This document shows, one piece after another, positions 975 through 37,098 of a DNA stretch of 42,789 nucleotides. A program made the translations under genes and the position numbers. Within the stretch, counting starts at the first letter, position 1. Every line of letters starts with the position of its first letter. The stretch is from a virus. The notes beneath the pieces are model-generated. The model ran no database searches. It was not told the origin of the DNA and saw only the letters and a list, made by a program, of their open reading frames with translations. The stretch is from positions 1 to 42,789 of the IMG/VR virus record IMGVR_UViG_3300025141_000217. One strand, written 5' to 3'.

Positions 975-994
975 TATCTATCTTATCTCCGTAA

Positions 995-2595: not shown

Positions 2596-3474
2596 TTATC
2601 TTTGTGTACCGCCCTTGTTGGACAATACTATTGGATCACGCCTTTTGTTATCTACATTATGTTTCTGCATCATCTTAACCATTTTTTGAGTTTCGGATAA
2701 TCCTGATTGTTCACCAACCCAGCTAGCAAAATCTATAGCATTATGATAATCATTGTCAGATACGAAGGCGTCATCATATTGAACTATATCGCTTAGGTAC
2801 TCGTGTATACCATCCTGAGTCAGAGGTCCGTCATAACCAGAAAGTAATTCGGCCGGATTAGATCCACCTTCTTGTTGATATCGTTCCCCAAGGGCATTTA
2901 CAGCTTCCGTGTCTGAACCAATAAGTTCGCTAATAGGATAGGGGTCACTACCCGGCAACTGTATGTTACCTTGTCCATCAAATGTAGGTTCGGATACGTC
3001 AGGAGGTGAAGCACTTGGACCATAATCAATATCTTCTGGTTTAATTTCTGGTTTAACCGGACCGTAATCAACTTGGTCAACCCCTTCAATTCCTTCAACC
3101 GGACGAACAATTCTGTCTTGAGAAATTTCAGGACCGGGTTCAGGGGCAGGAGGAACGTCTATACCTTGCTGATCTAAATCTTCCCTAATTTGGGCGGCAC
3201 GTTCTGGGTCGCCATAATCTAGGTCATACCCACCTTCAGCAGCATCAGGAGCTACTGCTCCACCACCACCCATGTCGTCGTAGTACTGTCCACCCTTAGG
3301 ACCCGTTTGTACCTGCGCTCCCTCAGGAGCTTGTTCACCGGGCTTAAGGTAAACTCTAGCTTTATCCAATTCCGCAGCGTCCAAACCTTCACCAAAGGGA
3401 CCTTTAGCCAAATGTTGAGTTTGAGTCTTTTTTACGAAATTAGGAAATAGTTCGGACAGTAAGTACTTAGACAT
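2596..3474 (-). CDS. Virion-associated protein with YLKPG linker motif
   Basis: 292 aa, acidic, rich in Gly, Pro, Asp and Gln and probably largely disordered from residue 70 to 200. Residues 41-67 carry a distinctive module that starts VYLKPGE and ends TGPKGGQYYD. A module about two-thirds identical occurs at residues 601-626 of the 882-aa fusion protein in the same operon. I recall similar sequences in head proteins of other phages and haloarchaeal viruses but cannot check this here. Repeats of the type YGP/DYGP (residues 135-155) are also visible. The C-terminal 80 residues look more ordered. The gene overlaps the prohead protease gene by one base (ATGA-type junction). Probably a minor head or virion protein; function unknown. 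Confidence 0.6.
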   Translation of the reverse strand: MSKYLLSELFPNFVKKTQTQHLAKGPFGEGLDAAELDKARVYLKPGEQAPEGAQVQTGPKGGQYYDDMGGGGAVAPDAAEGGYDLDYGDPERAAQIREDLDQQGIDVPPAPEPGPEISQDRIVRPVEGIEGVDQVDYGPVKPEIKPEDIDYGPSASPPDVSEPTFDGQGNIQLPGSDPYPISELIGSDTEAVNALGERYQQEGGSNPAELLSGYDGPLTQDGIHEYLSDIVQYDDAFVSDNDYHNAIDFASWVGEQSGLSETQKMVKMMQKHNVDNKRRDPIVLSNKGGTQR

Positions 3475-10656: not shown

Positions 10657-12652
10657 CTAGTCCATCCGGCAAGTCTAATTTATCTGGTTGGTATATAGCA
10701 TTCAGTTGCTTGTTTTTAGCCCTATCTTCTGGGGGCTTAGGGAAATGAGCCGGTTCGATATCCATCAAATCACCAGTTTTATTAAACGTAGCGACGTAAT
10801 CATCTCCGCTAGACTTGAACCACATTTTACCCATATCGGTAGTAACATCTTGTATTTCTGGGATATGTCCCCTATCTATAACTTGTTTCAACATCGTTTT
10901 TGTGCCGCTGTAATTACTATTAAAGGCATTTTGGATGTTCGGTTGCATTTCGGGAACACCAGAATCCATTTGACCTGTCTGGTCTCTACCTGCTCCACCT
11001 ATTCCGGGTTGCCCTTGAGCAACTGGAGGTTCAGTCATACCTTGTTCAGCCTCGCCCATACCATCAGGCATGCCTTCCATACTCATTCCCATGCCTTCCA
11101 TACCGCCACCCATCATTTGTTGCTGTTGCATCTCCATCTGCTCTTTAGGTCCTAGACCCTTTCCAGATATTTCAAAGTCCAAACTCATTATTCCAGAGTC
11201 CAAAGACTTCAATTTTACGTCATATCCTTCTTGTAGCAATTGGCTCGCAATCATAACTTTTTGTTGTACGAATTGAAGTTGGGTAGCTTCGGCTTTTTCT
11301 TCTGGAGTGAGTAACTCTAGCTTCCAGTCAGTAATTCCAAACATATCCAAGATAATCGGGAATACCTTTTCATGGAAAATACGCTGGTCGCCCTCAACCA
11401 CTCTGCTCATGACAACTAGTTGCTGAGTTTGGGTCGATAGTCCGCCAAATCCTTCAGGCGCACCCTGCCATGCAGGAGTTACACCCCACATAGCTGCAAT
11501 TCTTTCTCTAATTTCCTGTCGAACAGGTAAATAGTCCATTTCTTGCAGATTATGGAACAAGCGAATCATGTCAACCTTTCCACGTTGAGATTCGTTGCTA
11601 ACTGCAATCATAGGAATATATTCTGGGTTTTGTCGAATTTCTTGCTCTACTCGCTCCCGTTCTGCCCTCAAACTATCAGGGTCATCCGTAGATATCAAAA
11701 TCATGGATGCGGGCATTTTTCGCTCAAAGAAGTAACGGTAAAGAGTCTTATCCATACCGATAATAGTTAAGACTTTATCAAATAGCGTTAGAACTGGTGA
11801 CCACCCGTAAGTTCGGGTGGGCATAAATTTAGATACGTGTAGAACTTCCGAATCTAATAGATAAACTTCCTTACCTCTATATCGGTAAGTAAACATAGCA
11901 GGAACTAACGGTTTACCACATGAATCACAGCCCTGAGGTACTTCTGAAGCTGCGGCATCCCTGTGGATGTAACAAACATAATGTAATGCTTTAGGAACAC
12001 CTGTAGATTTATCTAAATCGTACTCGATAAGAGCAGGATTCAGTCGTTCCACAGAAATAACTTTAGAACGGATTTTTTCTCCATAATCTTTATATTCTTT
12101 GGCGAAATAAATAAATCCGTCGTCTATAGTGTTTACGTCCCACCAAAATTCCCTAAGAACATCCTCTAGAGTTTGGTCGAAGACGTTACAATCAGTTATA
12201 AAAGACTTGAGTTTTTGATATTGATCGACATCAGGTTCTACGAGAGTTTCTGAACTTCCTTCGTAATCACAACCCTTATTAGTACACGCCTCAGGCTTGT
12301 TTTTATATTCCGTAGAACAACTACTACATTTAACGGCAAACGCTGGTCGCCACGTTACACCACGACGGAAAATTTCTGAAATAATATGGTTGACAGGAGA
12401 TCTAACTTCTTCCACAGATTGTGCAATCTGCTGGATATCCTGAATCATATGCTGCCTAAAGGCAGCTTGTTGTTGAACCCAAACGTTTACTACTTGATCT
12501 ACCCCAAAAGTAGGGTTTCTGTAAGTTTCTCCGCTTTTATTTATTAGAGCCTGTTGCCCCATAGTATTAAGAAGGCTACTGAGCTCATATTCCTTTTGGG
12601 CTAAATGACCAGCTTCTGGAGCAAAATCATTAAGGGTTAGTCGTCCTGCCAT
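10646..12652 (-). CDS. Portal protein with zinc-ribbon insertions
   Basis: 668 aa. Length, location after terminase, and the C-terminal Met/Gln/Gly-rich tail fit a portal, the dodecameric ring through which DNA is packaged and to which terminase docks. Core signs are TIDDGFIYFAKEY, ISVERLNPALIEYD, VLHVSKFMPTRTYGWSPVL and the IREEIAAMWGVTPAW-like wing/crown segment (about residues 390-405). Unusually it carries two Cys clusters: C109-x2-C112 ... C123-x4-C128, and C227-x2-H230 ... C242-x2-C245, both typical of zinc knuckles. Residues 520-560 are Met/Gln/Gly low-complexity, probably disordered. It overlaps the fusion gene by 11 bp and the preceding small gene by 23 bp. Confidence 0.8.
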   Translation of the reverse strand: MAGRLTLNDFAPEAGHLAQKEYELSSLLNTMGQQALINKSGETYRNPTFGVDQVVNVWVQQQAAFRQHMIQDIQQIAQSVEEVRSPVNHIISEIFRRGVTWRPAFAVKCSSCSTEYKNKPEACTNKGCDYEGSSETLVEPDVDQYQKLKSFITDCNVFDQTLEDVLREFWWDVNTIDDGFIYFAKEYKDYGEKIRSKVISVERLNPALIEYDLDKSTGVPKALHYVCYIHRDAAASEVPQGCDSCGKPLVPAMFTYRYRGKEVYLLDSEVLHVSKFMPTRTYGWSPVLTLFDKVLTIIGMDKTLYRYFFERKMPASMILISTDDPDSLRAERERVEQEIRQNPEYIPMIAVSNESQRGKVDMIRLFHNLQEMDYLPVRQEIRERIAAMWGVTPAWQGAPEGFGGLSTQTQQLVVMSRVVEGDQRIFHEKVFPIILDMFGITDWKLELLTPEEKAEATQLQFVQQKVMIASQLLQEGYDVKLKSLDSGIMSLDFEISGKGLGPKEQMEMQQQQMMGGGMEGMGMSMEGMPDGMGEAEQGMTEPPVAQGQPGIGGAGRDQTGQMDSGVPEMQPNIQNAFNSNYSGTKTMLKQVIDRGHIPEIQDVTTDMGKMWFKSSGDDYVATFNKTGDLMDIEPAHFPKPPEDRAKNKQLNAIYQPDKLDLPDGLDDL

Positions 12653-26727: not shown

Positions 26728-27143
26728 TCTTTCAAGTCTCCAGACGCATTCGTAGCCAAAGTATCTGCCATTTCCTGTAGAGGGTGTCCCGAATGCCCCG
26801 GAACCCATACATGGCTAATATCCTTGAACGATTGGTGTAAGGCGAAATATTTACTCCATAAATCACTAGAGGAGGTACTAAACTTAATACAATTATCTAT
26901 AACATACTTACTGTCGGAATATATAGTAACACATTCAGATAAATCGTCTAAATACAAAGCTTCCAACCCCCGCACAACTCCCGTCAACTCCATTTCACTA
27001 TTAGTAGTGCTGGGTTCGCCTCCTGAAAGAATAAACAAGAGGTCTTCATCTTCATTAGTTATCACAACCCCCCATCCACCTACTCCACCGGGGTTTGTCC
27101 TACAAGAACCATCAGTATATATTTTTAATTTAGAATTTGGCAT
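26613..27143 (-). CDS. Ribonuclease HI
   Basis: 176 aa. All RNase HI catalytic residues are visible: D11 (YTDGSC), E50 (NSEMELTG), D77 (YSDSKYV) and H117/D127 (VPGHSGH ... EMADTLA). It removes RNA primers during replication. After residue 140 a basic tail (KKSRNRKRKFNFTRGK) extends beyond the usual domain, and this tail-coding region overlaps the primase gene by 115 bp in another frame. The gene starts inside the last codons of the DnaB gene (14-bp overlap). Confidence 0.9.
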   Translation of the reverse strand: MPNSKLKIYTDGSCRTNPGGVGGWGVVITNEDEDLLFILSGGEPSTTNSEMELTGVVRGLEALYLDDLSECVTIYSDSKYVIDNCIKFSTSSSDLWSKYFALHQSFKDISHVWVPGHSGHPLQEMADTLATNASGDLKEWLEKKSRNRKRKFNFTRGKTSSTKQDLKPHLKQIRSD

Positions 27144-28401
27144 CTTCTTGCTGTAAATCTTCCTGCATTAGTTCTTGAACATCCCCAACATCTACATTCC
27201 AACTCAGAACACTCTTAGCTGTAATTTCTGCATCGTCACGTTGTTTCATATAATAGAGAAATCTTTGATTATCATCATCTTCTACTTTACTCATCGCAAA
27301 CGCAATGTCGCTAGCCCGAACCAACGCATCTCCATTAGCTACCTGATTCAACTTAGGTGGTTTGAATAAGTCTACAGCTTCTCGTCCTGCCTGAGTGGTA
27401 CAAAACACAGGAATTTCATGAGCCATCGCTATATTCTTCAAACCTTTAAATAGATTATCATTCTGTTCCCACTTAGCCCTACTAGAATCATCGCTAAGTA
27501 GGTATACCCCATCAACTACCACTAAGTCTGGGGTATACTTTCGCACCAAATTTCTAATGGTCGATATGCTTAAGGCATCAAAGCCCAAATGGTGAGGAAA
27601 CAAAATATTTCTAGAGTCCATAGAAGTAAGAAATTCTCTATACTGTTCTTCATCTATCCCCTCTTCTCCTCTTCTAAGTTTAGTTAGAGAAAACTCATAC
27701 CCCAATAGTTTCCCCAAAAAAGCATCCATTCGCATGGACATAGCTTTCACGGGCATTTCTGTAGATATCAGTAGCGTTTTATACCCCTGTTTCATGGCAA
27801 CAGCAGCTACCTTTACAGACATGAACGACTTACCTACCGTAGGTCGAGCAAAGAGTGAATATAGTTCACCCGGCATCCACCCTACACCAAGCCTGTTAAG
27901 CGTCTTGAACGGGGTTGGTATACCCAACATACCCAACGACTGATCCTTACGCTGTGCAACCCTCTCAGAGTACTCTGCTAGACGATCTATACTGCCTGAG
28001 TCATAGACTTCTATATCATCATCGACAGTAGCGGTTACAGCCTCTAATTCTTGAATCAAACGCTCTATCGCTTGTTGTGGATTATTTCCCTGTATCTGGG
28101 GAACCCACTCATTGGCAGACTGGATGGCAGTACGATACATTAGTTGATGTTTCAGTTCTCCCGAAAAGAAACTTACGTCGGCTGCGTCTGCGGCACTTTG
28201 GTCTAATTCTGGATACTTTGCTAGAAGCACAGACCTTGATGGAACTTGCCTACTATCATCTAACTCATTCAAGATGAACTGGAATGCTTCCCCAAAAACG
28301 GCAAAATGTTTGGGGGTTACATTAATCTTCTTCAAATCGGCATAAGATGAGATATTTAGAACTATTCCACTTTCTACGTAGCTGTATGAAAGGTTACTCA
28401 C
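27130..28401 (-). CDS. DnaB-type replicative helicase
   Basis: 423 aa. Residues 1-110 are helical like the DnaB N-terminal domain, 115-165 a linker, and the RecA-like ATPase follows: Walker A ARPTVGKS at 185-192, LISTEMPVKAMSMRM (catalytic Glu), Walker B PDLVVVDGVYLL, and IPVFCTTQAGR with GDALVRASDIAF (arginine-finger region). It unwinds the fork in the 5'-3' direction as a hexamer. No DnaC-type loader is recognised; the adjacent 137-aa gene, overlapping by 4 bp, could be one but has no ATPase motif. Confidence 0.92.
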   Translation of the reverse strand: MSNLSYSYVESGIVLNISSYADLKKINVTPKHFAVFGEAFQFILNELDDSRQVPSRSVLLAKYPELDQSAADAADVSFFSGELKHQLMYRTAIQSANEWVPQIQGNNPQQAIERLIQELEAVTATVDDDIEVYDSGSIDRLAEYSERVAQRKDQSLGMLGIPTPFKTLNRLGVGWMPGELYSLFARPTVGKSFMSVKVAAVAMKQGYKTLLISTEMPVKAMSMRMDAFLGKLLGYEFSLTKLRRGEEGIDEEQYREFLTSMDSRNILFPHHLGFDALSISTIRNLVRKYTPDLVVVDGVYLLSDDSSRAKWEQNDNLFKGLKNIAMAHEIPVFCTTQAGREAVDLFKPPKLNQVANGDALVRASDIAFAMSKVEDDDNQRFLYYMKQRDDAEITAKSVLSWNVDVGDVQELMQEDLQQEDAKF

Positions 28402-28811
28402 TTAGCCCACTCCTTTAACTCTTCTTCTATTTCTGATAATCGCTTACGGTCAGATGCAGACGGAAACCACCTAGTAGAAATATCTTCATATTCATACCAA
28501 AGATTTTTCTGTCTCTTATTCCCTCTATCCTTTACCAACCATTCTAACTTCGGGTGGGGGGAGTGAGAATCGTAATCCTCAAAGTTATTACGGAATTCGG
28601 AAATTATAGTTCCCGATTTAGTGGCCACCTCTATCGCCAATAAAATAGTATACACATCATAATAGTTCAGCAACTCCTTAAAGGATTGTAAGTCCAAACC
28701 TCCCCATCGTAAAGACACGTATGGTTTAGACTGGTGAACTATAAATTCCGAATTCCAATAATCTAGAAGATGTTTACTAGTATACTTTTCTGGATGAACT
28801 TTTTTAGGCAC
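28398..28811 (-). CDS. Unknown replication-block protein (137 aa)
   Basis: 137 aa, rich in Trp, Tyr and charged residues; it is predicted helical from residue 45 to 80 and ends in an acidic helix (RLSEIEEELKEWAK). It lies between the NADAR gene and the DnaB gene and overlaps each by 4-8 bp. No P-loop, Cys cluster or HTH is evident. A helicase-loader or primosome role can be guessed from position only. I do not recognise the family. Confidence 0.55.
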   Translation of the reverse strand: MPKKVHPEKYTSKHLLDYWNSEFIVHQSKPYVSLRWGGLDLQSFKELLNYYDVYTILLAIEVATKSGTIISEFRNNFEDYDSHSPHPKLEWLVKDRGNKRQKNLWYEYEDISTRWFPSASDRKRLSEIEEELKEWAK

Positions 28812-29202
28812 GAAGTATTTCGCCTCTAACTTTCATCAAGATGGAGCCTAATTCGGAATCCCTTTTACCGCCTATACGCTTGGTACCAGTATTAGTTAGC
28901 ACTTTAGCTAAATCTTTATTAGACTCAAACTTTATTTTTACCAATTGATGTAGTGTAGCATACCTAACCTCATTCCAGTTAGGTCTAGTCCATTCATCCG
29001 ATAACAATTTCCTAACTTCGGCTAAATCAGACATTTTAGAAATTTTAAATTTCACGGTTCTGTCTAGAACTTTAGCAGCTAGGAAAGCGTGTTCTACCGA
29101 CGGATAGGTAATTCCCTCAACAATAACAGAGGTTGGGTATGAATTAGCTAGACACTTGTACGGTCCTTTCAATTCGATAGCGGGTATGTGTGTTCTACTC
29201 AT
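28804..29202 (-). CDS. NADAR (YbiA/DUF1768) family ADP-ribose glycosidase
   Basis: 132 aa from the ATG at 29202 with GGGA 7 nt upstream. The NADAR pattern is visible: LKGPYKCLANSYP, then EGITYPSVEHAFLAAK (YpSvEhayqa-K), a helix with VRKLL and W, LHQLVKIKFESNKDLAKVL (the KF-xxN-xxL segment), LTNTG, and the end LGSILMKVRGEIL. The family removes ADP-ribose from modified bases or hydrolyses N-glycosides, and phage members can reverse DNA guanine ADP-ribosylation. It is shorter than the usual 150-180 aa: the D-x-FWG segment between the Thr-Gly and final helix is missing (TNTGTKRIGGKRDSELG). Activity may therefore differ. It lies between SNF2 helicase and DnaB genes, overlapping both neighbours. 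Confidence 0.72.
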   Translation of the reverse strand: MSRTHIPAIELKGPYKCLANSYPTSVIVEGITYPSVEHAFLAAKVLDRTVKFKISKMSDLAEVRKLLSDEWTRPNWNEVRYATLHQLVKIKFESNKDLAKVLTNTGTKRIGGKRDSELGSILMKVRGEILRA

Positions 29203-30811
29203 AATAATTCCCATCAACTAATTTTGCATAATCTTGTACTGATAATTTTACTTCTTGCATTTGCTCTGCGCCTTCCATAAAATTATTAGATTCTGCCAAC
29301 CGAGTATTGTAAACTTTCTGTATTCCTTCATCTATTGTACCGATTAAATACGGTAATAAAATGTTAACTGTTTTTTCCTGACCCATGCGCCATAATCTAT
29401 CTTCACGCTGAATCATCGTACCGGGGTTATGGACATATCCGTAGTGAACTAATGTATCCGCACCCACCATATCTAAGCCGAATTTTCCAGCATCGGTAGA
29501 TATGAGAATTCCCTTTTTAATTTTGTTGAAATCCCTAACTACTTCAAACCTATTGTTCTTTTCTTTTCCAGATATGTAATAAGGAGTATCAAAATACTCT
29601 TTCAACATTCTGGCACTTTTTTCAAAGAATGTGAATACGACTAGCTTATCTACAGTTTTATATAAATCTTCTAGCCATTGTCTTTTAGTTTTAGTAGCTA
29701 AATTACCATACATACCTTCAACGAAATATCTGACGTCTAGCGTAGCAGACCCCACAGTTTTATGTTCTTCTTTACTCCCACCCTCAACCCATGCTTTAAA
29801 TTCTGAGGATAGTTTTGAGTATTCAGATTTTTCTTCCGCCGACATCTCTAGTGGAATAGGTGTGTAGATTTTTGGAGGTAACTCCTTCAGCTTTTCTAGC
29901 TTAGTTCTACGCAACACAAATGGAGAAGTCAGGGCGTGGAGCTCTGGTAATTTTTCTTTTTTCGCTCCTAAAACTTTACCGTTCCAATCGACTTCACAAT
30001 AGCGTTTAGTAAATGTGTAGACGTTATCGGGAACAACCTCAGGGCGGATAAATTTCATAATAGAAAAGAACTCCGTTAGGCTGTTTTCTATGTATATTCC
30101 CGATAAGGCGAACTTATATTCTGCCTCTAACTTTAGAGCTCGTTTAGTTCTTATGGCTTTGGGATTTTTTAGGTACACCGCTTCATCGGCAATAATAACA
30201 TCCCATTTGTGGGGCATATCGTCCCAATCCCTATTAGGGTGGAGTAGGTCATAGTTAGCTATAATATACTTAGCTTTAGATTTCCAAACTGCCCTACGTT
30301 CTTCCTTTTTTCCTGCGACCACAAAAGCATCAATGTTGAAATGTTTTTTAAACTCGTCAGCCCATTTCCACTTTAACGACGAAGGACATAATACTAATAC
30401 TTTATCGGCAGGTACATCCATAGAAGCTTTAATAGCTTGGATGGATTTACCTAATCCCATATCATCCGCCAATAATCCTTTTTTAGCAAACGTTAGAAAC
30501 TCAACCCCAACAGTTTGATACGGGCGAAGTAATCCGCCAGACTCTCCTTCTTGAAACTTCAAATCCACTAATTTTAGTATCGTGTCTTCGACTTTTCGTT
30601 TGGCTGCCTGAGCTGCATCTGTCCAAGTAGCGGGTACTGTCCGTGGGGGACCTAATTGCTCTAAGGATTTACTAGCTAACCTAGGAACTCTCCACTCTTT
30701 AGTGGATTTGTTCCATTCACGAACTGGTAAATTTTGGACAAGTTTCAAATCTCCCTTATTATAAGGAAAATCTAAAATAAAGAATGGGGCTTTATAATCA
30801 ATCCGAATCAT
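29195..30811 (-). CDS. SNF2-family DEAD/H helicase
   Basis: 538 aa. An N-terminal HARP-like segment (WNKSTKEWRVPRL) precedes the helicase core: RPYQTVGVEFLT, Walker A DDMGLGKS, DEAV (motif II; usually DEAH), the motif III region ALSGIYIENS (usually SGTPIEN), PFVLRRTK, and motif VI QREDRLWRMGQ. The order and length fit SMARCAL1-like phage translocases that remodel forks or clear proteins. It overlaps the Gp157 gene by 4 bp (ATGA). The His-to-Val change in motif II and Thr-Pro to Ile-Tyr in motif III are visible deviations, which may alter coupling of ATPase and translocation. Confidence 0.88.
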   Translation of the reverse strand: MIRIDYKAPFFILDFPYNKGDLKLVQNLPVREWNKSTKEWRVPRLASKSLEQLGPPRTVPATWTDAAQAAKRKVEDTILKLVDLKFQEGESGGLLRPYQTVGVEFLTFAKKGLLADDMGLGKSIQAIKASMDVPADKVLVLCPSSLKWKWADEFKKHFNIDAFVVAGKKEERRAVWKSKAKYIIANYDLLHPNRDWDDMPHKWDVIIADEAVYLKNPKAIRTKRALKLEAEYKFALSGIYIENSLTEFFSIMKFIRPEVVPDNVYTFTKRYCEVDWNGKVLGAKKEKLPELHALTSPFVLRRTKLEKLKELPPKIYTPIPLEMSAEEKSEYSKLSSEFKAWVEGGSKEEHKTVGSATLDVRYFVEGMYGNLATKTKRQWLEDLYKTVDKLVVFTFFEKSARMLKEYFDTPYYISGKEKNNRFEVVRDFNKIKKGILISTDAGKFGLDMVGADTLVHYGYVHNPGTMIQREDRLWRMGQEKTVNILLPYLIGTIDEGIQKVYNTRLAESNNFMEGAEQMQEVKLSVQDYAKLVDGNYYE

Positions 30812-31347
30812 CGTAGCCTTAGGTGTTGATTCCTTTCTACGTGAGTTCCTTGAACTTCAAAATCATCGTTCCTAGCTAAATCTATAATAGCTTTTTTATC
30901 CACAGCTAATTTTAGTGTGGGGTGTCCTGATAGTTCTTCGGGTAATTCATTTAGTTGGAGGGTTAGCGTGGCTTTCATAAAGTCCGATGGAATCACATTT
31001 TCATCATCTACCACTAAACTCGGAGGACTGTTTTGTATATTTACAGAACCTAACGTACCCCCGGCTTTAGTTCTTCCTGAAGCCTCTAGTAACTGCCTCA
31101 TGTAATCTTTTATTCGAGTTACGTGGTTATTGACAGCTTTCTTTTTATCTTTCAGCCGGGTGATTTCTGAATCCACTACTGCGGATTGCGCCTCCAAAGT
31201 CTTTACCGACAACACTAAACTTTCCATTCTTTGGTCTAGTGTTTCAGCAATACCTAATAAGACTTCCGAAATATCTACATCTTCTTCTTCGGCAAAATCT
31301 ACTAAAGTTCTATACTGTTCTGATAACTCGTAAAGGTTAATTGGCAT
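30808..31347 (-). CDS. Siphovirus Gp157-family protein
   Basis: 179 aa. The layout matches the Gp157/host-nuclease-inhibitor-like family: LYELSEQYRTLVDFAEE, a long coiled-coil (residues 35-95, including SEITRLKDKKKAVNNHVTRI), then beta strands (LGSVNIQNSPPSLVVDDEN, IPSDFM) and the end AIIDLARNDDFEVQGTHVERNQHLRLR, quoted only as ALIDLA-type and GTHVERNQHL motifs. In other phages the gene accompanies recombination and SSB genes. It overlaps the sigma-factor gene by 46 bp and the SNF2 gene by 4 bp. It probably has a DNA-recombination accessory role. Confidence 0.75.
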   Translation of the reverse strand: MPINLYELSEQYRTLVDFAEEEDVDISEVLLGIAETLDQRMESLVLSVKTLEAQSAVVDSEITRLKDKKKAVNNHVTRIKDYMRQLLEASGRTKAGGTLGSVNIQNSPPSLVVDDENVIPSDFMKATLTLQLNELPEELSGHPTLKLAVDKKAIIDLARNDDFEVQGTHVERNQHLRLR

Positions 31348-31889
31348 TCTGATTTAAGTCCCCATTCTAATTTAAGTTTTACGCTTTCTCGTAGCTTTAC
31401 AGCATTAACCCCTAGTATATCACTAATTTCCCTTAACCTATACCGTTGGGTTCGTAAATCTATAAAATCTAGCTCTTTAGGGGTGAGGTTACACTTATCT
31501 ATCAGAGACAGTAAATCCACCTCGTCGAAAAGTTCTACCTGAGTAGAATCCTCTAAAGCCGTTAGCAACTTATTAGATACCGACCCTATATTTCTAGTGT
31601 CGGATTGAGACATAGAAGAACTTAAATGTTGATCTAAAGAAACCGTTGGTACGTGTTTCTTCGCCTTCGCCATTAAACTTCTAATTACGTTTAACATAGA
31701 TACGTGTAAATACGTATGGAATTTAGCTGAAGTGTTTTCGGGGTTATACCCTCTAGCAGATTTCAATATTGAAATCCGAAGTTCTTGGGCAATATCTTCC
31801 CGATCAAGTCCTACGATAGACACACTACGAAGCATAGAATTTACCTTAGGCTCCCACTGTTCTAGCAACTGTGCTTCGTTATGTGTCAT
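31302..31889 (-). CDS. Phage sigma-70-family sigma factor
   Basis: 195 aa. Region 2 is visible at about residues 20-75 (LDREDIAQELRISILKSA, then GYNPENTSAKFHTYLHVSML), with the -10 recognition helix. A Ser/Thr-rich linker follows, then a region 4 HTH (LTPKELDFIDLRTQRYRLRE, SDILGVNAVKLRESVKLKL). The order is that of ECF or T4 gp55-like sigma factors. It could direct host RNA polymerase to phage promoters, such as the recurrent TATAATAT boxes without a -35. A weak AAGG site lies 7 nt upstream and a 32-aa ORF precedes it by 4 bp. Confidence 0.8.
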   Translation of the reverse strand: MTHNEAQLLEQWEPKVNSMLRSVSIVGLDREDIAQELRISILKSARGYNPENTSAKFHTYLHVSMLNVIRSLMAKAKKHVPTVSLDQHLSSSMSQSDTRNIGSVSNKLLTALEDSTQVELFDEVDLLSLIDKCNLTPKELDFIDLRTQRYRLREISDILGVNAVKLRESVKLKLEWGLKSECQLTFTSYQNSIEL

Positions 31890-31893
31890 ACGT

Positions 31894-31992
31894 TTACCTT
31901 ATCCATTTTATGTAAGAGTCTCTATGACCTAAATACTCTTCCAACTCCAGTTTTTGAACAATCACCCTAAAAAACTCTCTAATAGTACGCAT
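31894..31992 (-). CDS. 32-aa small ORF upstream of sigma factor
   Basis: An ATG frame of 32 codons with a near-ideal Shine-Dalgarno (TTAGGAGAAGATA). It starts MRTIREFFRVIVQKLELEEY and ends HRDSYIKWIR, an amphipathic basic helix, and stops 4 bp before the sigma-factor ATG. It may be a leader peptide coupling translation to the sigma gene or a tiny anti-/co-sigma factor; only the ribosome site and spacing support it. Confidence 0.45.
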   Translation of the reverse strand: MRTIREFFRVIVQKLELEEYLGHRDSYIKWIR

Positions 31993-32009
31993 TATCTTCT
32001 CCTAACGCA

Positions 32010-32056
32010 CTAAAGAGTGTGGAGGGCCGTCTTCATGTGGCGGTCACGCACTCTAT
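32010..32056 (-). terminator. Hairpin after tmRNA, possible terminator or processing site
   Basis: AGAGTG and CACTCT (6 bp) enclose a loop with further partial pairing (GACCG/CGGCC region), ending in CACTCTTTAG. The T-run is short, so termination would be inefficient and the sigma-factor operon could be reached by read-through. It may define the 3' end of the tmRNA precursor. Confidence 0.3.
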
Positions 32057-32060
32057 GTTT

Positions 32061-32200
32061 TGGTGGAAGCGGAGGGAATTGAACCCTCGTCCTGACTTCC
32101 TACTCGGTCAACCCTGCCGTATTTGCTGTGGGCTTTTTAGCAGTTGAGACATTACATCTCTGATTGATTGCTAGGGAACCAGTCGAAACCATGCGCCCCC
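32061..32200 (-). ncRNA. ssrA: Compact tmRNA (transfer-messenger RNA), 140 nt
   Basis: The ends fold as the tRNA-like domain of tmRNA. A 7-bp acceptor stem pairs GGGGGCG (5') with CGCTTCC (3'), including the G3-U70 pair that directs alanine charging. It is followed by discriminator A and encoded CCA. The D-loop substitute ATGGTTTCGACTGG is the tmRNA hallmark. The T-arm is GAGGG-TTCAATT-CCCTC (32072-32088), preceded by GTAGGAAGTCAGGAC as in other tmRNAs. An interrupted P2 helix joins ACT, GGTT and CCCT with AGGG, GACC and AGT. Inside are a hairpin (32146-32160) and CTAAAAAGCCC, resembling the stretch before the resume codon in E. coli. A possible tag frame GCA...TAG (32100-32126) would encode ANTAGLTE. 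Usual tmRNAs are 300-400 nt with four pseudoknots; most of the middle is absent. The tag is uncertain. Confidence 0.85.
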
Positions 32201-32205
32201 AATAC

Positions 32206-32213
32206 ATATTATA
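32206..32213 (-). promoter_or_regulatory. Promoter -10 TATAATAT for tmRNA
   Basis: TATAATAT; its TATAAT core ends 7 nt before the mature 5' G of the tmRNA, the normal -10 to +1 distance, so the RNA may start at its mature end. No -35 match is evident 17 nt upstream (AT-rich). Confidence 0.55.
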
Positions 32214-32232
32214 TAGCTTATCACAAATTTAT

Positions 32233-32295
32233 TTAGTGTGCCAACCCTTTTTTACCGCATTGGCAATTTCCGCCACATTTGCATTCGGAAAGCAT
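32233..32295 (-). CDS. 20-aa Cys-rich micro-protein
   Basis: ATG frame of 20 codons: M-L-S-E then CKCGGNCQCG (Cys at 5, 7, 11 and 13) and KKGLAH. Two C-x-C pairs separated by three residues resemble a minimal metallothionein or Zn/Cu-binding loop. Its ATG overlaps the stop of the 50-aa membrane gene (TAATG), so translation is probably coupled. It is close to the tmRNA promoter. The four regularly placed Cys and the coupled start support it; nothing else is known. Confidence 0.45.
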   Translation of the reverse strand: MLSECKCGGNCQCGKKGLAH

Positions 32296-32447
32296 TATTC
32301 GTTCTCCAGTACCTTCATCCCAAGAGCTATGATGCCCCCAATGGTACCTGTAGCAATTTCTGGAAGCCCATTATTTGCTCCCGTGTAAGCTAGTACACCT
32401 AGGACAATTATAGCTAAAAAGATTTGAGGTCTAAGTTTTCCAATCAT
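32295..32447 (-). CDS. 50-aa two-helix membrane protein, holin-like
   Basis: 50 aa with two hydrophobic stretches, FLAIIVLGVLAYTG (about 10-23) and ATGTIGGIIALGMKVL (about 32-47), joined by ANNGLPEI; N-terminus basic. GGAG lies 6 nt before the ATG and overlaps the end of the Hsp20 gene, so it is coupled. The size and topology fit a small holin or another inner-membrane phage protein; no endolysin is nearby. Alternatively a membrane-stress protein linked to the chaperone genes. Confidence 0.65.
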   Translation of the reverse strand: MIGKLRPQIFLAIIVLGVLAYTGANNGLPEIATGTIGGIIALGMKVLENE

Positions 32448-32450
32448 AAC

Positions 32451-32855
32451 TTACTCCATAGTTACATCTACTGGAATTACTTTAGGTTTTGCTTCCTCAG
32501 TTTTAGGAAGAGTAATCTCTAGAATTCCCTTAGAGTATTTTGACGTTATCTGATCTACGTCAACATTAGTATTATTCAGAGATAAAGTTTTAGAAAACTT
32601 ATAGTCTGATATACCGTGTATATTGAACTGTCCCTCTTCTTGATCTTTTTCTGAGAAATCTCGCTCTACGTCTATAAGTAGAGAATTATCTTCGACCGAT
32701 ACACTTACATCCGTTGCACCCGGCGTAGATACTCTTATTAGATATTCTGCTTCTCTATCTATTATATCCATAGGACGCCGAGTATCCAAACCATAAAAAC
32801 TTCGGACGAAATTTCCGCTAAGAGGAAGATTCATTAAATCTGTAATATTAGCCAT
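32451..32855 (-). CDS. Hsp20-family small heat-shock protein
   Basis: 134 aa. The alpha-crystallin domain spans about 30-125, with MDIIDREAEYLIRVSTPGA, VSVEDNSLLIDVERD, FSKTLSLNNTNVDVDQITS and the signature end YSKGILEITLPK. The N-terminal FVRSFYG region is short. The family holds unfolding proteins as ATP-independent oligomers. Phage Hsp20 genes occur in cyanophages and others; here the gene is in one operon with GroES, so it probably supports assembly or host proteostasis. It overlaps the 69-aa gene by 8 bp. Confidence 0.9.
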   Translation of the reverse strand: MANITDLMNLPLSGNFVRSFYGLDTRRPMDIIDREAEYLIRVSTPGATDVSVSVEDNSLLIDVERDFSEKDQEEGQFNIHGISDYKFSKTLSLNNTNVDVDQITSKYSKGILEITLPKTEEAKPKVIPVDVTME

Positions 32856-33057
32856 ATTGAATATCTCCTTCTATGACACTAGCCCTAGCAACTACTAACC
32901 ACAATCTACTGTCTTTTAGGAACTGCACTTGCAGGTCCCAGTTAGCTTCGTCTGCTCTATTATCAATAAACTCAGTTAGAACTTTGTGAACCTCGTCTAT
33001 TGTGTTACAGGTAAAATTCTCGCTCAACTCAGTTCGTTTATCTTGAATTATTGACAT
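32848..33057 (-). CDS. Small protein between GroES and Hsp20 (69 aa)
   Basis: 69 aa with an acidic N-terminal helix and a C-terminal beta-like segment (WDLQVQFLKDSRLWLVVARA). It starts immediately at the GroES stop (TAGATG) and overlaps the Hsp20 start by 8 bp, so all three chaperone-block genes are coupled. Unknown family; possibly an accessory to the chaperones. Confidence 0.55.
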   Translation of the reverse strand: MSIIQDKRTELSENFTCNTIDEVHKVLTEFIDNRADEANWDLQVQFLKDSRLWLVVARASVIEGDIQYG

Positions 33058-33369
33058 CTACTTACCTTTCTCGGTTTTGTGCAACGTGGCCACAATTTCG
33101 TGGTCAGTTAGAACAAAATACTTAGTGTCTTCATGGTCTATCACCATTTGAGAGTGCTTTATAAAAACCACCCTAGTCCCAACCTTTAGTCGGGGTTTAA
33201 TAGTGTCCCCAGAAAACTCATTTACTCGACCTTGACCTACACTAGCTATAGTCCCATATCCGTGAACTGTCATTAGTTCTCCCGGAACATGCAACCCACC
33301 TTTGGTCATAGTATTATCGTCTTCCACAACAAGATACTTACTATCGTAAGCTACCAACTTTTCTGACAT
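33058..33369 (-). CDS. GroES-like co-chaperonin
   Basis: 103 aa. It has a Cpn10 fold pattern: KYLVVEDDNTMTKGGLHVPG (roof/mobile loop region), GYGTIASVGQGRVNE, KVGTRVVFIKH and YFVLTDHEIVATL (C-terminal strand). The mobile loop, which docks to GroEL, appears as the segment around TKGGLHVP. Like T4 gp31, it may change host GroEL so that capsid or other phage proteins fold. It follows the tRNA gene by 24 bp with site GGAGATAAGGT. No GroEL is encoded in the window, so it must use the host chaperonin. Confidence 0.85.
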   Translation of the reverse strand: MSEKLVAYDSKYLVVEDDNTMTKGGLHVPGELMTVHGYGTIASVGQGRVNEFSGDTIKPRLKVGTRVVFIKHSQMVIDHEDTKYFVLTDHEIVATLHKTEKGK

Positions 33370-33393
33370 ACCTTATCTCCTATAAAAATTTAT

Positions 33394-33468
33394 TGGTAGC
33401 GGGGGCGGGAATCGAACCCACGATCTTCTAGTAATGAGCCAGATGAGATGCCACTTCTCTACCCCGCA
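33394..33468 (-). tRNA. tRNA-Met(CAT), initiator-type features
   Basis: 75 nt with a full cloverleaf and encoded CCA. Acceptor TGCGGGG pairs with CCCCGCT at six positions but leaves a T1-T72 mismatch, as initiator tRNAs (C1-A72 in E. coli) leave position 1-72 unpaired. D stem GAGA/TCTC gives A11-U24, the initiator type (elongators have pyrimidine-purine). The anticodon loop is CTCATTA (CAT). The variable loop AGATC and T arm GTGGG-TTCGATT-CCCGC are normal. The anticodon stem has only one of the three G-C pairs (U-A, G-U, G-C at 29-31/39-41) of strong initiators, which may weaken P-site preference. Overall close to fMet tRNA. A promoter box lies 9 nt upstream. Confidence 0.88.
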
Positions 33469-33477
33469 ATGGATACT

Positions 33478-33485
33478 ATATTATA
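33478..33485 (-). promoter_or_regulatory. Promoter -10 TATAATAT for tRNA/chaperone operon
   Basis: TATAATAT ending 9 bp before the tRNA 5' end, downstream of the nadA stop. It fits initiation near the tRNA and read-through into GroES, Hsp20 and the small genes. The -35 region (TGTAAC) is poor. Confidence 0.5.
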
Positions 33486-33503
33486 CAGTATTTTATCTAA
33501 AAG

Positions 33504-34712
33504 TTACACTCCTAGCTTTAGCATACGGTCAAGCGCAACTAAAGCATGCCTCTTATGCCCCGATTCAACCTCAATCCTGTTTATTGCAATTCCCGCCAAT
33601 ATCCCCTCCAATACCCAAAGAATGTACGCAGGATGTATTCTATACATTGTAGCACAAGGGCATACTATAGGGTCGAGACAAAATATCTCTTTATCGGGAT
33701 ACTGTTGTGCTAACCGTTTCACCATATTAACTTCAGTACCGATTCCCCAAGACGTTCCTGAGGGAGCGTTAGCTATAGTCTTCAAAATAAACTCTGTAGA
33801 ACCTGACATATCCGCTGCGTCTACCACTTCTCTAGTACACTCAGGGTGTACCAAGATATTAGTCAGAGGATTTTTATCCCTGATAGCGTCTATTTGATCG
33901 GTGGTAAATCTAGTATGAACAGAACAGTGTCCCTGCCACAATAACACAGTAGCTTTGCGAATTTCTTCTTCCTCTAATCCACCCATAGGTAGGTGAGGAT
34001 TCCAGACTTTCATATCCGACTCAGGTATGCCTTTAGCTAGTCCAGTGTTTCTTCCTAAGTGTTGGTCAGGTAGGAATAATATTTTATTCCCTCGTTCCAA
34101 CGCCCAGTCAAAAGCTTTATCAGCGTTAGAAGAAGTACACACCAAGCCACCGTTTTCTCCACAATGCGCTTTTATGGAGGCGGAGGAATTCATGTAGGTT
34201 ATAGGAACAATATCCTCTGTAGAACCCAACACATATTTCAACGCACTCCAACTAGTCTCTACATCATCTATCGCAGCCATATCAGCCATGGAACAACCTG
34301 CGGCTAAGTTAGGCAGTATAACGTTTTGGTCGTTTGAAGTAAGAATATCGGCTGTTTCAGCCATAAAGTGGACACCGCAAAAAATTATCCATTTAGCGTC
34401 TGTGATTTCCGACGCTTGTTTAGATAGTTGATAAGAGTCTCCCGTTATGTCTGCAAATTGTATTACATCATCACGTTGGTAGTGGTGACCTAACACTACA
34501 GCCTTAGTTCCAATTTCCTTCCTAGCAAACGCAATTCCTTCAGTCAATTCCTCAGGAGTTAATTTTGCATATCTAGTAGGTATCTTCTGCCAACGAACTC
34601 CTGCCTTAAACTCTTCTTCTAAAGTTTTGGTGCGTAGGTTTCCATCCGACTGACAAAAAGCCGATTGTTCTAATTCGGTTATGGGTACTATTTGTTTAGT
34701 AGCCGTTACCAT
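33504..34712 (-). CDS. nadA: Quinolinate synthase
   Basis: 402 aa from the ATG at 34712, preferred over one 7 codons upstream because AAGGA lies 7 nt before it and the methyltransferase stop is adjacent. NadA condenses iminoaspartate with dihydroxyacetone phosphate to quinolinate, the first dedicated NAD+ intermediate. The three [4Fe-4S] ligands are C140 (AAGCSMADM), C192 (GLVCTSSNA) and C351 (PIVCPCATMYRIHP). Other signatures are FCGVHFMAETADIL, YMNSSASIKA, LFLPDQHLGRNTG, LLWQGHCSVHTRF and VHPECTREVVD. It is full length. Phage nadA is uncommon. Neither NadB nor NadC is in the window, so the host pathway must supply and finish the reaction. Confidence 0.93.
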   Translation of the reverse strand: MVTATKQIVPITELEQSAFCQSDGNLRTKTLEEEFKAGVRWQKIPTRYAKLTPEELTEGIAFARKEIGTKAVVLGHHYQRDDVIQFADITGDSYQLSKQASEITDAKWIIFCGVHFMAETADILTSNDQNVILPNLAAGCSMADMAAIDDVETSWSALKYVLGSTEDIVPITYMNSSASIKAHCGENGGLVCTSSNADKAFDWALERGNKILFLPDQHLGRNTGLAKGIPESDMKVWNPHLPMGGLEEEEIRKATVLLWQGHCSVHTRFTTDQIDAIRDKNPLTNILVHPECTREVVDAADMSGSTEFILKTIANAPSGTSWGIGTEVNMVKRLAQQYPDKEIFCLDPIVCPCATMYRIHPAYILWVLEGILAGIAINRIEVESGHKRHALVALDRMLKLGV

Positions 34713-34713
34713 T

Positions 34714-36228
34714 TTAATTTCCTTCGTGTACACCTAACATTCGATTTTCTAGCATAAGAAAAGCTACCGCTGCTTGTTGCGGAACTACTCCGTTTCCAAG
34801 TATGCGAAGTTTGTCAGCTCTACCCAATCCTCCGGCCAACCCATCAACCACTCCACGAACTTCGGGTTTAGCCGGGGCAAGGTCGGGTCTTTCCCTGAGG
34901 ATTTGTCCCCACTCAAGGCTTGTTGGACGGGGCGGCCATGAAAATGGTCTGCATCCGAAATCAATCCCCGTTGATGGGAATTCACTGTTGATTTCGCTCC
35001 GTCGTCCCCCGCCATTGGAGTTGACCAATTCGCCGTTTGATCCCGTAGTTTTATCTTCGGATTGCCCCCGTAGTTCTTCTTCACTATCCCACCATCTGGA
35101 TCTGATGCGCTTGGCGTTCTCCAACCCGCCACCCTGTCCTGAAGATTCAGACTGTGGCTGTTCTTTCCATCCTTCGTCTTCCGTCGTCCCGTTTCCGTTA
35201 ATTCCATATCGGGGTGCGGAGTCTCCTGAGTCGTGGGGGTCGGCCAAGTTGACCACATCACCGCTTGTCCCATCAGACGAGAGGGATCCGTCGGTCGATT
35301 CTTGAATTTGTCGTTGGCGTTTGAGGTAGTAGGAGAAGCCCAGTTGTTCCCCACTTCTTGGGCTAGTTCCGCTGCCTTCAGCAAAGATTTCGGACGATTC
35401 TTCACGTTGCTGTTCTGATTCGGTGCTTCGGGCATCGTATCGGGAGTCGGCCAGTTCATATCCTGACTGTACTCTTCTTTCCAACTGGGAACGAATTCGT
35501 GTGCTACTTGATTCGGAAGTTGCGTCATGAACTTCGGTTGACTGTTGGTTCCCTTTACGTCCCTCGCTGTAGGGGTGGACCAACTGCTCACTACCTGACC
35601 CAGCGATACCGAATGTCTCCCCAAACCCGTTTCGGGATTGAAGTTCGTATCCTTGCGGAAGTTCTTGGGTTTGTAGTTCCTGTCCGTCGTGTCGGGGGTC
35701 GGCCATTTGGGCATAGATGAACGCCCGTTCTCGTCTATGACTGGCTCCAACATCGGACGCTTTGTAAACACCCCATTCAACATGGTACCTGAGGTTGGCC
35801 AAGTCCCTGAGGATTTCTTCGAATCCGTCCCCATCATTAACAGATAGGAGTCCACGCACGTTCTCCAAGAACAACCCTTGTGGCTGCGCTTCTGACACGA
35901 TTCTCCTAATGTGAGGGAAAAGCCATCTCTCATCGTCTTGTCCTGATCTTCGTCCTGCAACGGAGGCGGGCTGACAAGGGAATCCTCCAATGATCCAATC
36001 CACTTTTCCACGCCATGGTTTACCGTCGAAGGTTCCGGAATCTGCAAAGATAGGCGCATCATCCAATTGTCCCGTTTGCATGTGGTCAACCAAGAGCGCA
36101 AGGCTCGATGCTTCCCTTTCCACGTAACAGACTGCTCTAGCACTTGGATTTGCGAGTTTGAAGGCAAGGTCGAGTCCCCCGCCTCCTGAGTAGAGACTGA
36201 TGTATTTGATTTCGGGATGTGTATCCAC
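34714..36228 (-). CDS. DNA cytosine-C5 methyltransferase
   Basis: 504 aa from a GTG with AGGAG 10 nt upstream. C5-MTase motifs occur in order: I (SLYSGGGGLDLAF), IV (GGFPCQPAS, catalytic C85), VI (LFLENVRGLL), VIII (GASHRRERAFIYA) and X near the end (LRILGNGVVPQQAAVAF). The middle (about residues 165-440), where the target-recognition domain should lie, is replaced or filled by a hydrophilic array of repeats of the kind LADPHDSGD, LADSRYDAR and LVNSNGGGRR, seven in all. This region has G+C well above its neighbours and encodes a second long frame. Likely it protects phage DNA from host restriction; no matching endonuclease is present. It lies between the TrpF-like gene and nadA. Confidence 0.85.
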   Translation of the reverse strand: MDTHPEIKYISLYSGGGGLDLAFKLANPSARAVCYVEREASSLALLVDHMQTGQLDDAPIFADSGTFDGKPWRGKVDWIIGGFPCQPASVAGRRSGQDDERWLFPHIRRIVSEAQPQGLFLENVRGLLSVNDGDGFEEILRDLANLRYHVEWGVYKASDVGASHRRERAFIYAQMADPRHDGQELQTQELPQGYELQSRNGFGETFGIAGSGSEQLVHPYSEGRKGNQQSTEVHDATSESSSTRIRSQLERRVQSGYELADSRYDARSTESEQQREESSEIFAEGSGTSPRSGEQLGFSYYLKRQRQIQESTDGSLSSDGTSGDVVNLADPHDSGDSAPRYGINGNGTTEDEGWKEQPQSESSGQGGGLENAKRIRSRWWDSEEELRGQSEDKTTGSNGELVNSNGGGRRSEINSEFPSTGIDFGCRPFSWPPRPTSLEWGQILRERPDLAPAKPEVRGVVDGLAGGLGRADKLRILGNGVVPQQAAVAFLMLENRMLGVHEGN

Positions 36229-36230
36229 AC
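34785..36230 (-). CDS. Overlapping WPTP-repeat protein in alternative frame of methyltransferase
   Basis: 481 uninterrupted codons in a different frame, from a GTG at 36230 with AGGAG 8 nt upstream, a better spacing than for the methyltransferase. From residue 120 it is not random: SWRTCVDSYLL, SSGTWPTSGTMLNG, then seven repeats built from W-P/S-T-P...D and L-x-D/N-Q-V-A-x-W (for example WSTPTARDVKGT, LQDRVAGWRTPSASDPDGG), and the end LNPKFVEWLMGWPEDWVEL. I recall free-standing phage proteins of this kind, often labelled DNA methyltransferase. The first 120 residues overlap the conserved catalytic half of the methyltransferase and look less organised. Either a genuine overlapping gene or a shadow of repeat-coding DNA; see findings. 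Confidence 0.5.
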   Translation of the reverse strand: MWIHIPKSNTSVSTQEAGDSTLPSNSQIQVLEQSVTWKGKHRALRSWLTTCKRDNWMMRLSLQIPEPSTVNHGVEKWIGSLEDSLVSPPPLQDEDQDKTMRDGFSLTLGESCQKRSHKGCSWRTCVDSYLLMMGTDSKKSSGTWPTSGTMLNGVFTKRPMLEPVIDENGRSSMPKWPTPDTTDRNYKPKNFRKDTNFNPETGLGRHSVSLGQVVSSWSTPTARDVKGTNSQPKFMTQLPNQVAHEFVPSWKEEYSQDMNWPTPDTMPEAPNQNSNVKNRPKSLLKAAELAQEVGNNWASPTTSNANDKFKNRPTDPSRLMGQAVMWSTWPTPTTQETPHPDMELTETGRRKTKDGKNSHSLNLQDRVAGWRTPSASDPDGGIVKKNYGGNPKIKLRDQTANWSTPMAGDDGAKSTVNSHQRGLISDADHFHGRPVQQALSGDKSSGKDPTLPRLNPKFVEWLMGWPEDWVELTNFAYLETE

Positions 36231-36241
36231 TAATTTAACTC

Positions 36242-36958
36242 CTATTGCTTTAGAAATCCAGAGTTTTCAACTTCGTCCAAAACCCGCTGAATTTTATCAA
36301 AATCCAATGTGCCGTGATTAAATGACCAATTTCGTATTTTACCTTCCATATCAATCCATATGTCTGCATCTCCCGCTGCCGCAGCAATTTGAGGAAGAGC
36401 AGTTCTCATGTTGTCAGGACCTAAACCACCTGAGTATCCAAACTTTCCACCCAAAAGAACGTGATCTGCTTTAGGCCAAACGTTAGGAGAAGTTCCACTT
36501 CCATGAGAAGTATCGAATAGTCCTGATACATTTACGCCCAATGAGTTAGCAAGTCCAAATGTATATGTGTTCATAGGAACATCATCCAACTGGAATATAA
36601 TTTCCTTGTCCGAAAATAAATCGGATTTGAATAATTCTAACGTAGTGTGCTGAGTGTGGTGAGGGTGACCGTGAGTATTAATCTGTACTCGTTGAAAAGA
36701 ATCCCATCCTTCAATAGACAATACTTCTACCGGGTTAGAATTCTCTAATAGTTCTTTTACCGAACACATATGAGCAGAAAGAGGAAGGTCGGTAGAGGTT
36801 AATTCTTTAACCCAACCAGCATCAGGAAAAAGCCCGCCTCCAAAATGTGGTGTTTGTATACCCCATTCAATATATGGATGGGTTTCGTAGAGGTCACACA
36901 TCTTTGTAATAGACGTTCCATTGCTCGCTCCACTAAAAGTTACTGTGTGTATGTTCAA
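36242..36958 (-). CDS. TrpF-like (phosphoribosylanthranilate isomerase-fold) protein
   Basis: 238 aa from the TTG at 36958, chosen because AAGGAG lies 8 nt upstream; an ATG at 37012 lies ahead of the promoter box. The C-terminal half follows the TrpF pattern: GLFDTSHGSGTSPNVWP (LLDSSSGGTG-like), VLLGGKFGYSGGLGPDNMRTAL (aGGLnpeNv-like phosphate site), and ADIWIDMEGKIRN...GTLDFDKIQRVLDEV (DvsSGvE..pGvKD..KI-like). The classic catalytic Cys motif KICG near the N-terminus is not seen; the start is IHTVTFSGASNGTS. So it is a TIM barrel of PRAI type with a changed active site. Substrate unknown; neighbouring nadA could suggest a phosphoribosyl substrate. Confidence 0.55.
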   Translation of the reverse strand: MNIHTVTFSGASNGTSITKMCDLYETHPYIEWGIQTPHFGGGLFPDAGWVKELTSTDLPLSAHMCSVKELLENSNPVEVLSIEGWDSFQRVQINTHGHPHHTQHTTLELFKSDLFSDKEIIFQLDDVPMNTYTFGLANSLGVNVSGLFDTSHGSGTSPNVWPKADHVLLGGKFGYSGGLGPDNMRTALPQIAAAAGDADIWIDMEGKIRNWSFNHGTLDFDKIQRVLDEVENSGFLKQ

Positions 36959-36988
36959 TATGCTCTCCTTAAGCTTTATAGGACTGTA

Positions 36989-36997
36989 AGTATAGCA
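36989..36997 (-). promoter_or_regulatory. Extended -10 promoter TGCTATACT
   Basis: TGCTATACT, an extended -10 (TG-n-TATACT) 28 bp before the TTG start of the TrpF-like gene. A start site about 7 nt downstream leaves a short leader containing AAGGAG. The -35 is weak, as extended -10 promoters permit. Two other -10-like boxes lie further upstream at 37049-37056 (TATAATAA) and 37099-37106. Confidence 0.5.
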
Positions 36998-37098
36998 TAG
37001 ATTTAAGAACATTGGACGAATTATATATTTTCCTACCCAAATATAATTTTATTATACTCAAGTTTTTCAAAAATAAATGGTCAATTTTTAAGGGCTTT

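Follow-up and report, generated by a model that had tools for sequence, protein, structure and literature searches.

The 42,789 bases of the partial IMG/VR virus record IMGVR_UViG_3300025141_000217, referred to here as the window, encode a quinolinate synthase (NadA) that we consider to be, more likely than not, a working phage copy of a host enzyme, exchanged with SAR202-type bacteria (Dehalococcoidia) and serving as a metabolic gene that raises quinolinate and hence NAD+. "SAR202-type" is a group label chosen here; only one of the loci compared (L034) carries that name. Judged from sequence, NadA appears to be a real host gene that has been repeatedly exchanged in phages, a NADAR-family protein encoded in the same window is probably without enzyme activity, and an ADP-ribosyltransferase (ART) tail on a virion-cluster fusion protein is plausible. 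The nadA gene is as follows.

33504 to 34712, minus strand: nadA, quinolinate synthase of 402 amino acids (PF02445; E value, 9e-95; TIGR00550 above cut-off; ATG at 34712)

The NadA sequence is complete and scores 317.6 bits against PF02445 (cut-off, 27) and 311 bits against TIGR00550 (cut-off, 262.9). The stop of the upstream methyltransferase gene lies one base from the nadA ATG, which is preceded by a ribosome-binding-like GGAAA, and a longer frame with a GTG start begins at 34733. Alignment to the solved NadA 4p3x covered all three iron-sulfur cysteines (residues 140, 263, and 351), which we take to be the [4Fe-4S] cluster ligands; the window and all 82 cellular-type rows retain them, the latter a set that includes two records mislabelled "phage." The viral set comprises 21 rows, the window and 20 further loci, of which 18 are full length, two are partial (L120 and L131), and one was unread (L121). 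All 18 full-length rows keep the three cysteines and the checked H, Y, N, T, S, and E positions; position 264 varies. Compared with its closest relative, which is 99% identical, nadA has a dN/dS of 0.043 and is under purifying selection. The protein is thus predicted to be a full quinolinate synthase with an intact active site. A preliminary description of this DNA had assigned nadA the synthesis of the NAD+ precursor quinolinate, and the family assignment, the active-site residues, the purifying selection, and the repeated exchange with cells described below make this part of it stronger than it could have known.

Homologues in cells were scanned with one genome per species, retaining the best 80 of at least 593 matches. 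The closest NadA among the matches listed was 75% identical and came from a Dehalococcoidia metagenome-assembled genome (MAG; L032), followed by those of Dehalococcoidia/SAR202 MAGs at 61 to 62%. In L032, nadA lies on a stretch of chromosome that also carries nadX (aspartate dehydrogenase), miaB, and nadC, and the SAR202-type MAG L033 has the order miaB-nadA-nadC. Trees of NadA were built from 54 rows and then from 27 rows, with the cellular rows thinned and L120, L121, and L131 left out. In both trees, the window clade is sister to L032 (support with 27 rows, 100/99), and the phages L115 and L116 group with L033 (100/100). The 27-row tree requires four changes between phage and cell, including one that accounts for the large phages L118, L119, and L130; the placement of L117 is weakly supported. 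The approximately unbiased (AU) test rejects a single phage clade, both for five phage rows (p-AU, 3e-57) and for six with L117 included (p-AU, 4e-79), values that are optimistic because the groups were picked after the 54-row tree had been seen; even so, the differences in log-likelihood (115 and 147) are large. Therefore, at least two exchanges of nadA with cells have taken place among these phages. Over 137 residues, the partial NadA of L120 is nearer to that of L032 (73%) than to that of the window (65%). L120 shares a portal (51%) and a Nudix with the window and L117 shares a phosphoesterase (41%); both are distant kin of the window phage with nadA placed elsewhere, in L117 following thyX. 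Two more groups of nadA-carrying viral contigs (L118, L119, and L130, and L122 to L129) include some of more than 270 kb, and several of these contigs carry NadV-like genes.

Among the 20 loci in viral contigs that encode a NadA relative, synteny with the window nadA region was found in L112 to L114 only. Across these three records and the window, nadA occupies the same place between the same genes, with NadA divergence of up to 19%. The neighbors of nadA are the following.

33394 to 33468, minus strand: tRNA-Met (cat), just after nadA (ARAGORN)

34714 to 36228, minus strand: C5 cytosine DNA methyltransferase, directly upstream of nadA (PF00145; E value, 3.5e-38)

36242 to 37012, minus strand: conserved 256-amino-acid protein upstream of the methyltransferase, syntenic in L112 to L114

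Some "phage" database records with nadA are bacterial chromosome, which raises the question of whether the window gene is likewise host contamination of an assembly or else a neutral, recent pick-up of host DNA. We regard either as highly improbable, because the gene keeps its neighbors in four records despite the divergence of its product, its dN/dS is low, and the portal, the DnaB, and a terminase-like gene with viral-contig relatives share the contig. The nadA records in the named-phage collection were rejected as a phage precedent: the two of nine matches that were opened (MT835574 and OR848117) are bacterial chromosome with nadB, nadC, and nadA, the nadC of OR848117 having been recognized by eye only. 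Compared with bacterial NadA of the SAR202/Dehalococcoidia type (PF02445, TIGR00550), the window protein agrees in family, full length, the three iron-sulfur cysteines, the checked active-site positions, and 75% identity to the MAG copy, and it differs in being phage encoded, in a record without nadC, and placed behind a phage methyltransferase.

None of the 21 nadA viral records contains nadC; therefore, the phage NadA must feed host enzymes that act after it and probably also depends on those that act before it. A CTP_transf_like domain (of the NadD/NadM kind and others) was found weakly in 3 of 21 records and the NadV/PncB-type PF04095 in 6 of 21, the latter never in the window clade. In the pathway that we propose, host NadX (aspartate dehydrogenase) would make iminoaspartate, phage NadA would condense it with dihydroxyacetone phosphate to quinolinate, and host NadC, NadD, and NadE would convert quinolinate to NAD+, so that the oxygen-sensitive iron-sulfur enzyme added by the phage would keep or raise the NAD+ pool during infection. 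The NADAR-family protein would stand outside this pathway as a non-hydrolytic binding or accessory protein, and the Nudix-PAP2-ART fusion would be a separate virion-cluster protein.

Several points weigh against this interpretation. NadA catalyzes a single step of five, and NadX consumes NAD+ itself; therefore, extra NadA may not raise NAD+. The host would be SAR202-type bacteria, an assignment based on the ancestry of nadA and on the B12-dependent ribonucleotide reductase encoded in the window only. Besides the optimistic p-AU values, the direction of nadA transfer is not proved by the tree, for which capture from cells is the simpler reading.

The enzyme might instead have a more specific task. 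As an anti-defense gene, NadA would refill NAD+ drained by the SIR2, TIR, or ART NADases of systems such as Thoeris and DSR and would be the de novo counterpart of NARP. This is conceivable, but we find it doubtful. The fact that cells and unrelated phages have exchanged nadA repeatedly fits such a role, as do the co-occurrence of NadV-like PF04095 in the six records outside the window clade and the presence of SIR2_2 in 18 of the 147 genomes of the candidate host order, which is the order to which the genome of L032 belongs. Against it, the products of NADases are not substrates of NadA, and the de novo route needs NadX, NadC, NadD, NadE, and ATP. The neighbors of nadA are a methyltransferase, a tRNA, and chaperones rather than defense-linked genes, and searches of the window, which covered PF01467, PF04095, and PF01729 only, brought no NARP-like partner to light. 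Rebuilding of NAD+ by a phage does have a published precedent in NARP1, which is described as rebuilding it from ADP-ribose. A broader form of the idea, that unrelated phages of SAR202-type bacteria and, separately, some very large phages acquired nadA as a recurrent weapon that pushes de novo NAD+ synthesis to outrun NADase defenses, is likewise tentative; if true, it would represent a third route in addition to NARP and the salvage of nicotinamide.

NAD-based defenses exist in the candidate host order, given that SIR2_2 and DarT (15 of 147 genomes) are both found there; NADAR is found in 5 of 147. SIR2_2 occurs in one (G023) of the three nearest genomes, and none of the three contains DarT. 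DarT and NADAR were never found in the same genome among the 147, a weak result that is no test of avoidance, as 0.5 co-occurrences are expected by chance; accordingly, there is no sign of guanine-type DarT1-NADAR pairs, which a phage NADAR would counter. NadA may thus serve to counter NAD+ depletion; a metabolic role is the one that we favor.

The preliminary description had gone further and suggested that NadA, the NADAR-family protein, and the ART-Nudix fusion may form one distributed anti-defense set directed against NAD+ depletion and DarTG. All three genes are indeed present in the window and in three of its three close relatives, and DarT is carried by the candidate host order. However, the three occur together only in the window clade (4 of 21 nadA viral records), the ART tail being confined to these same four records. 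NADAR was found in 7 of the 20 other nadA records, namely, three of the window clade, L118, L119, L130, and L128, and was not found in L115 (81.6 kb), L116 (66 kb), and L120 (53 kb); as the records are mostly fragments, such misses are soft. NADAR is in any case reported from more than 48% of medium and jumbo phages in PMC9503650. The co-occurrence test that the description proposed speaks against a system, and no linked set emerged. The genes also belong to three separate gene groups, with NadA and NADAR 4.3 kb apart, and the span from 28804 to 34712 also contains an SNF2 helicase, Gp157, a sigma-like factor, Hsp20, GroES, and tRNA-Met, all of which are outside any NAD theme. NADAR is absent from all 15 genomes that carry DarT, and passages of PMC11125620 state that the NADARs tested do not reverse thymidine ADP-ribosylation. 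With the catalytic loop of the window NADAR lost and the ART leg not confirmed, as set out below, a three-gene shield against bacterial defenses is not supported, and we consider it very unlikely. What stands of the NAD+/ADP-ribose theme is nadA, membership in the NADAR family, and the Nudix and PAP2 domains; the NADAR catalytic loop is missing, and the ART tail is a sub-threshold match.

The NADAR-family gene sits in a replication group between genes for two helicases.

28804 to 29217, minus strand: NADAR-family protein without the catalytic C-terminal loop (PF08719; E value, 3.2e-13)

29195 to 30811, minus strand: SNF2-type helicase, the end of which overlaps the NADAR open frame (PF00176; E value, 1.4e-36)

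28398 to 28811, minus strand: 137-amino-acid protein encoded between the NADAR and replicative helicase genes, in a frame that overlaps that of NADAR; conserved in relatives, with no significant family match in profile library searches

27130 to 28401, minus strand: DnaB-like replicative helicase (PF03796; E value, 7.2e-20; phrog_19; E value, 5e-53)

Membership in the NADAR family is clear from the sequence matches (PF08719, 50.7 bits against a cut-off of 35.1; family profile match of 100% by hhalign; PDB matches to ybiA 2b3w at 1e-6 and to NADAR 8bau at 0.0018). Where other NADARs have L-x-E-G-N-x-W-x-D-x-x-W-G, those of the clade share a single deletion of about 15 columns, which eliminates the catalytic acidic residue along with two residues of the ADP-ribose pocket, Asp and Trp, in four of four distinct sequences (window, 3300030329, 3300046467, and the 3300025131/3300025141 type, the last with a few unrelated residues at the loop site). 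A frameshift or assembly error was rejected as the cause, because the deletion recurs in four distinct sequences that diverge to as little as 50% identity. In a panel made up of the 80 top-scoring sequences among 502 matches to an alignment led by a canonical NADAR, a choice that favors intact loops, all 80 have the E, N, first W, D, and G of the motif, and 78 have the second W. When the window NADAR served as a less biased query, 39 of the 40 matches listed (of 85) span at least 9 extra residues and one stops before the loop. The E, D, and W are kept in six of seven rows from outside the clade, T4 gp30.3 being of the His type. Two positions of the LSNF motif are also changed: Ser17, which all 80 panel sequences have, and Phe19, which 77 of them have.

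Passages of PMC11543638 report that E125, D130, and W133 of an oomycete NADAR contact ADP-ribose and that in the Escherichia coli C7 NADAR the loss of the equivalent acidic residue (D171) abolished efficient activity. The loss of the catalytic acidic residue together with the pocket Asp and Trp therefore makes ADP-ribose removal by the window NADAR unlikely, and a non-hydrolytic binding or accessory protein is the most likely assignment, with a job that may lie in replication or DNA binding. The earlier claim that this protein can remove ADP-ribose from DNA bases is accordingly retained for the family and not for the reaction. Some features would still suit a loop-less enzyme that hydrolyzes ADP-ribose or riboflavin intermediates through other residues: Glu35, Lys42, and Trp74 are retained, the first two corresponding to the conserved E43 and K50 of the oomycete enzyme; gp30.3-type phage NADARs carry His for Glu, and the T4 protein is reported as active in a passage of PMC11125620; and the gene is under purifying selection, although its dN/dS (0.20) is the highest among the genes that were compared for the closest pair, apart from the overlapping methyltransferase. 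It also evolves faster than nadA, with 50% identity to the relative L003 against 81% for NadA. Given that the acidic residue, Asp, and Trp were deleted together and that two LSNF positions changed as well, we judge residual hydrolysis to be improbable. Thus, among NADAR/YbiA proteins, which include DarT1 antitoxins and orphan phage NADARs, the window protein shares the sequence family, Glu35, and Lys42 and lacks the acidic residue and the pocket Asp and Trp, a warning against taking every NADAR match as an ADP-ribose hydrolase.

The third member of the proposed set is encoded in the virion cluster.

8008 to 10656, minus strand: virion-cluster fusion protein with Nudix (amino acids 165 to 270), PAP2 phosphatase (492 to 579), and a putative ADP-ribosyltransferase tail (about 710 to 875), assigned by Pfam and by conserved R-S-E-type positions

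10646 to 12652: portal gene, adjoining the fusion protein gene

The predicted Nudix (E value, 2.6e-16; 60.3 bits against a cut-off of 21.1) and PAP2 (E value, 2.9e-6) domains are solid. The tail gave a sub-threshold match to DRAT (0.055 for the whole protein and 0.007 for the domain alone; 16 bits against 25). Its LYRG, LSSWT, and E-x-E positions, an order that we take to be the R-S-E type ART layout, are kept in eight homologues, the window and seven others that are 51 to 98% identical to it, with the first Ser of LSSWT replaced by Ala in L020. Two AlphaFold models of the tail were poor (pLDDT, 44 and 54), and Foldseek and VIA-align searches with the low-confidence model returned ART-fold chains weakly and mixed with unrelated chains. 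Comparison of the tail with T4 Alt by hhalign gave no match, and PDB profile searches with it gave chance matches only. A relative of the fusion in L009 has an extra ART-PolyVal domain (865 to 1491, minus strand; PF18760; 2.8e-7, just above cut-off), which lends credibility to an ART theme for this virion protein. A putative ADP-ribosyltransferase is therefore plausible, so that of the suggestion that the fusion may use NAD+ and ADP-ribose, the Nudix and PAP2 domains hold and the ART tail lacks a confident fold. Like virion-associated ART/Nudix polyvalent phage proteins, the fusion combines Nudix and a putative ART in a portal-adjacent protein; unlike them, it has a PAP2 phosphatase in mid-protein, and its ART fold is only putative. 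As a separate observation, several proteins of the structural cluster in this group of phages (window 8008 to 10656 and 2596 to 3474, and also L011 and L013) share a recurring motif similar to RVYLKPGQEAPEGVKVETGPxGGxYYD.

In PMC9503650, ART, Macro, NADAR, and Nudix proteins packaged in virions are already proposed to act against NAD-based defense, and section 3.6 of that paper names only salvage enzymes for phage NAD+ synthesis. The window NadA resembles the NadV/NadM/NadR salvage enzymes and the Adps and Namat of NARP1 in that phage genes feed NAD+ synthesis; in contrast to those systems, which salvage nicotinamide or ADP-ribose, it is a single de novo step. No paper on phage nadA was found in our literature search, the incomplete coverage of which does not prove absence; in the matching passages of PMC6102473, PMC12965618, PMC9239159, and PMC13232231, the words matched something other than a phage nadA gene. 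That an intact de novo enzyme, standing alone, has been acquired repeatedly suggests that the supply of quinolinate is limiting for phage growth in some hosts. The gene would also tie a set of uncultured phages to SAR202-type bacteria, whose phages are not known to have been studied in depth.

Elsewhere in the window, the minus strand carries long frames with family matches to portal, class II ribonucleotide reductase, RecA-like, DnaB, SNF2 helicase, sigma-like factor, Hsp20, GroES, and methyltransferase proteins; the names terminase, PolA, and primase were assigned by eye. The second half of the window (20001 to 42789) has no near match among named phages, and a promoter and terminator scan gave sites no more numerous than in shuffles. 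The product of 36242 to 37012 has no match in four libraries (Pfam, NCBIfam, PHROG, and PADLOC); by eye, it may resemble a TIM-barrel isomerase such as TrpF.

A second open frame (34785 to 36230, minus strand; 481 amino acids) lies in another frame of the same strand as the methyltransferase gene, spans nearly all of it, and is also open in L003. Differences at the three methyltransferase codon positions number 18/7/3 compared with L112 (4/2/24 for nadA) and 88/30/49 compared with L003 (73/27/238 for nadA). The second frame thus looks at least as conserved as the first, as would befit an overprinted gene; its product matches phrog_1008, "DNA methyltransferase" (E value, 2e-26).

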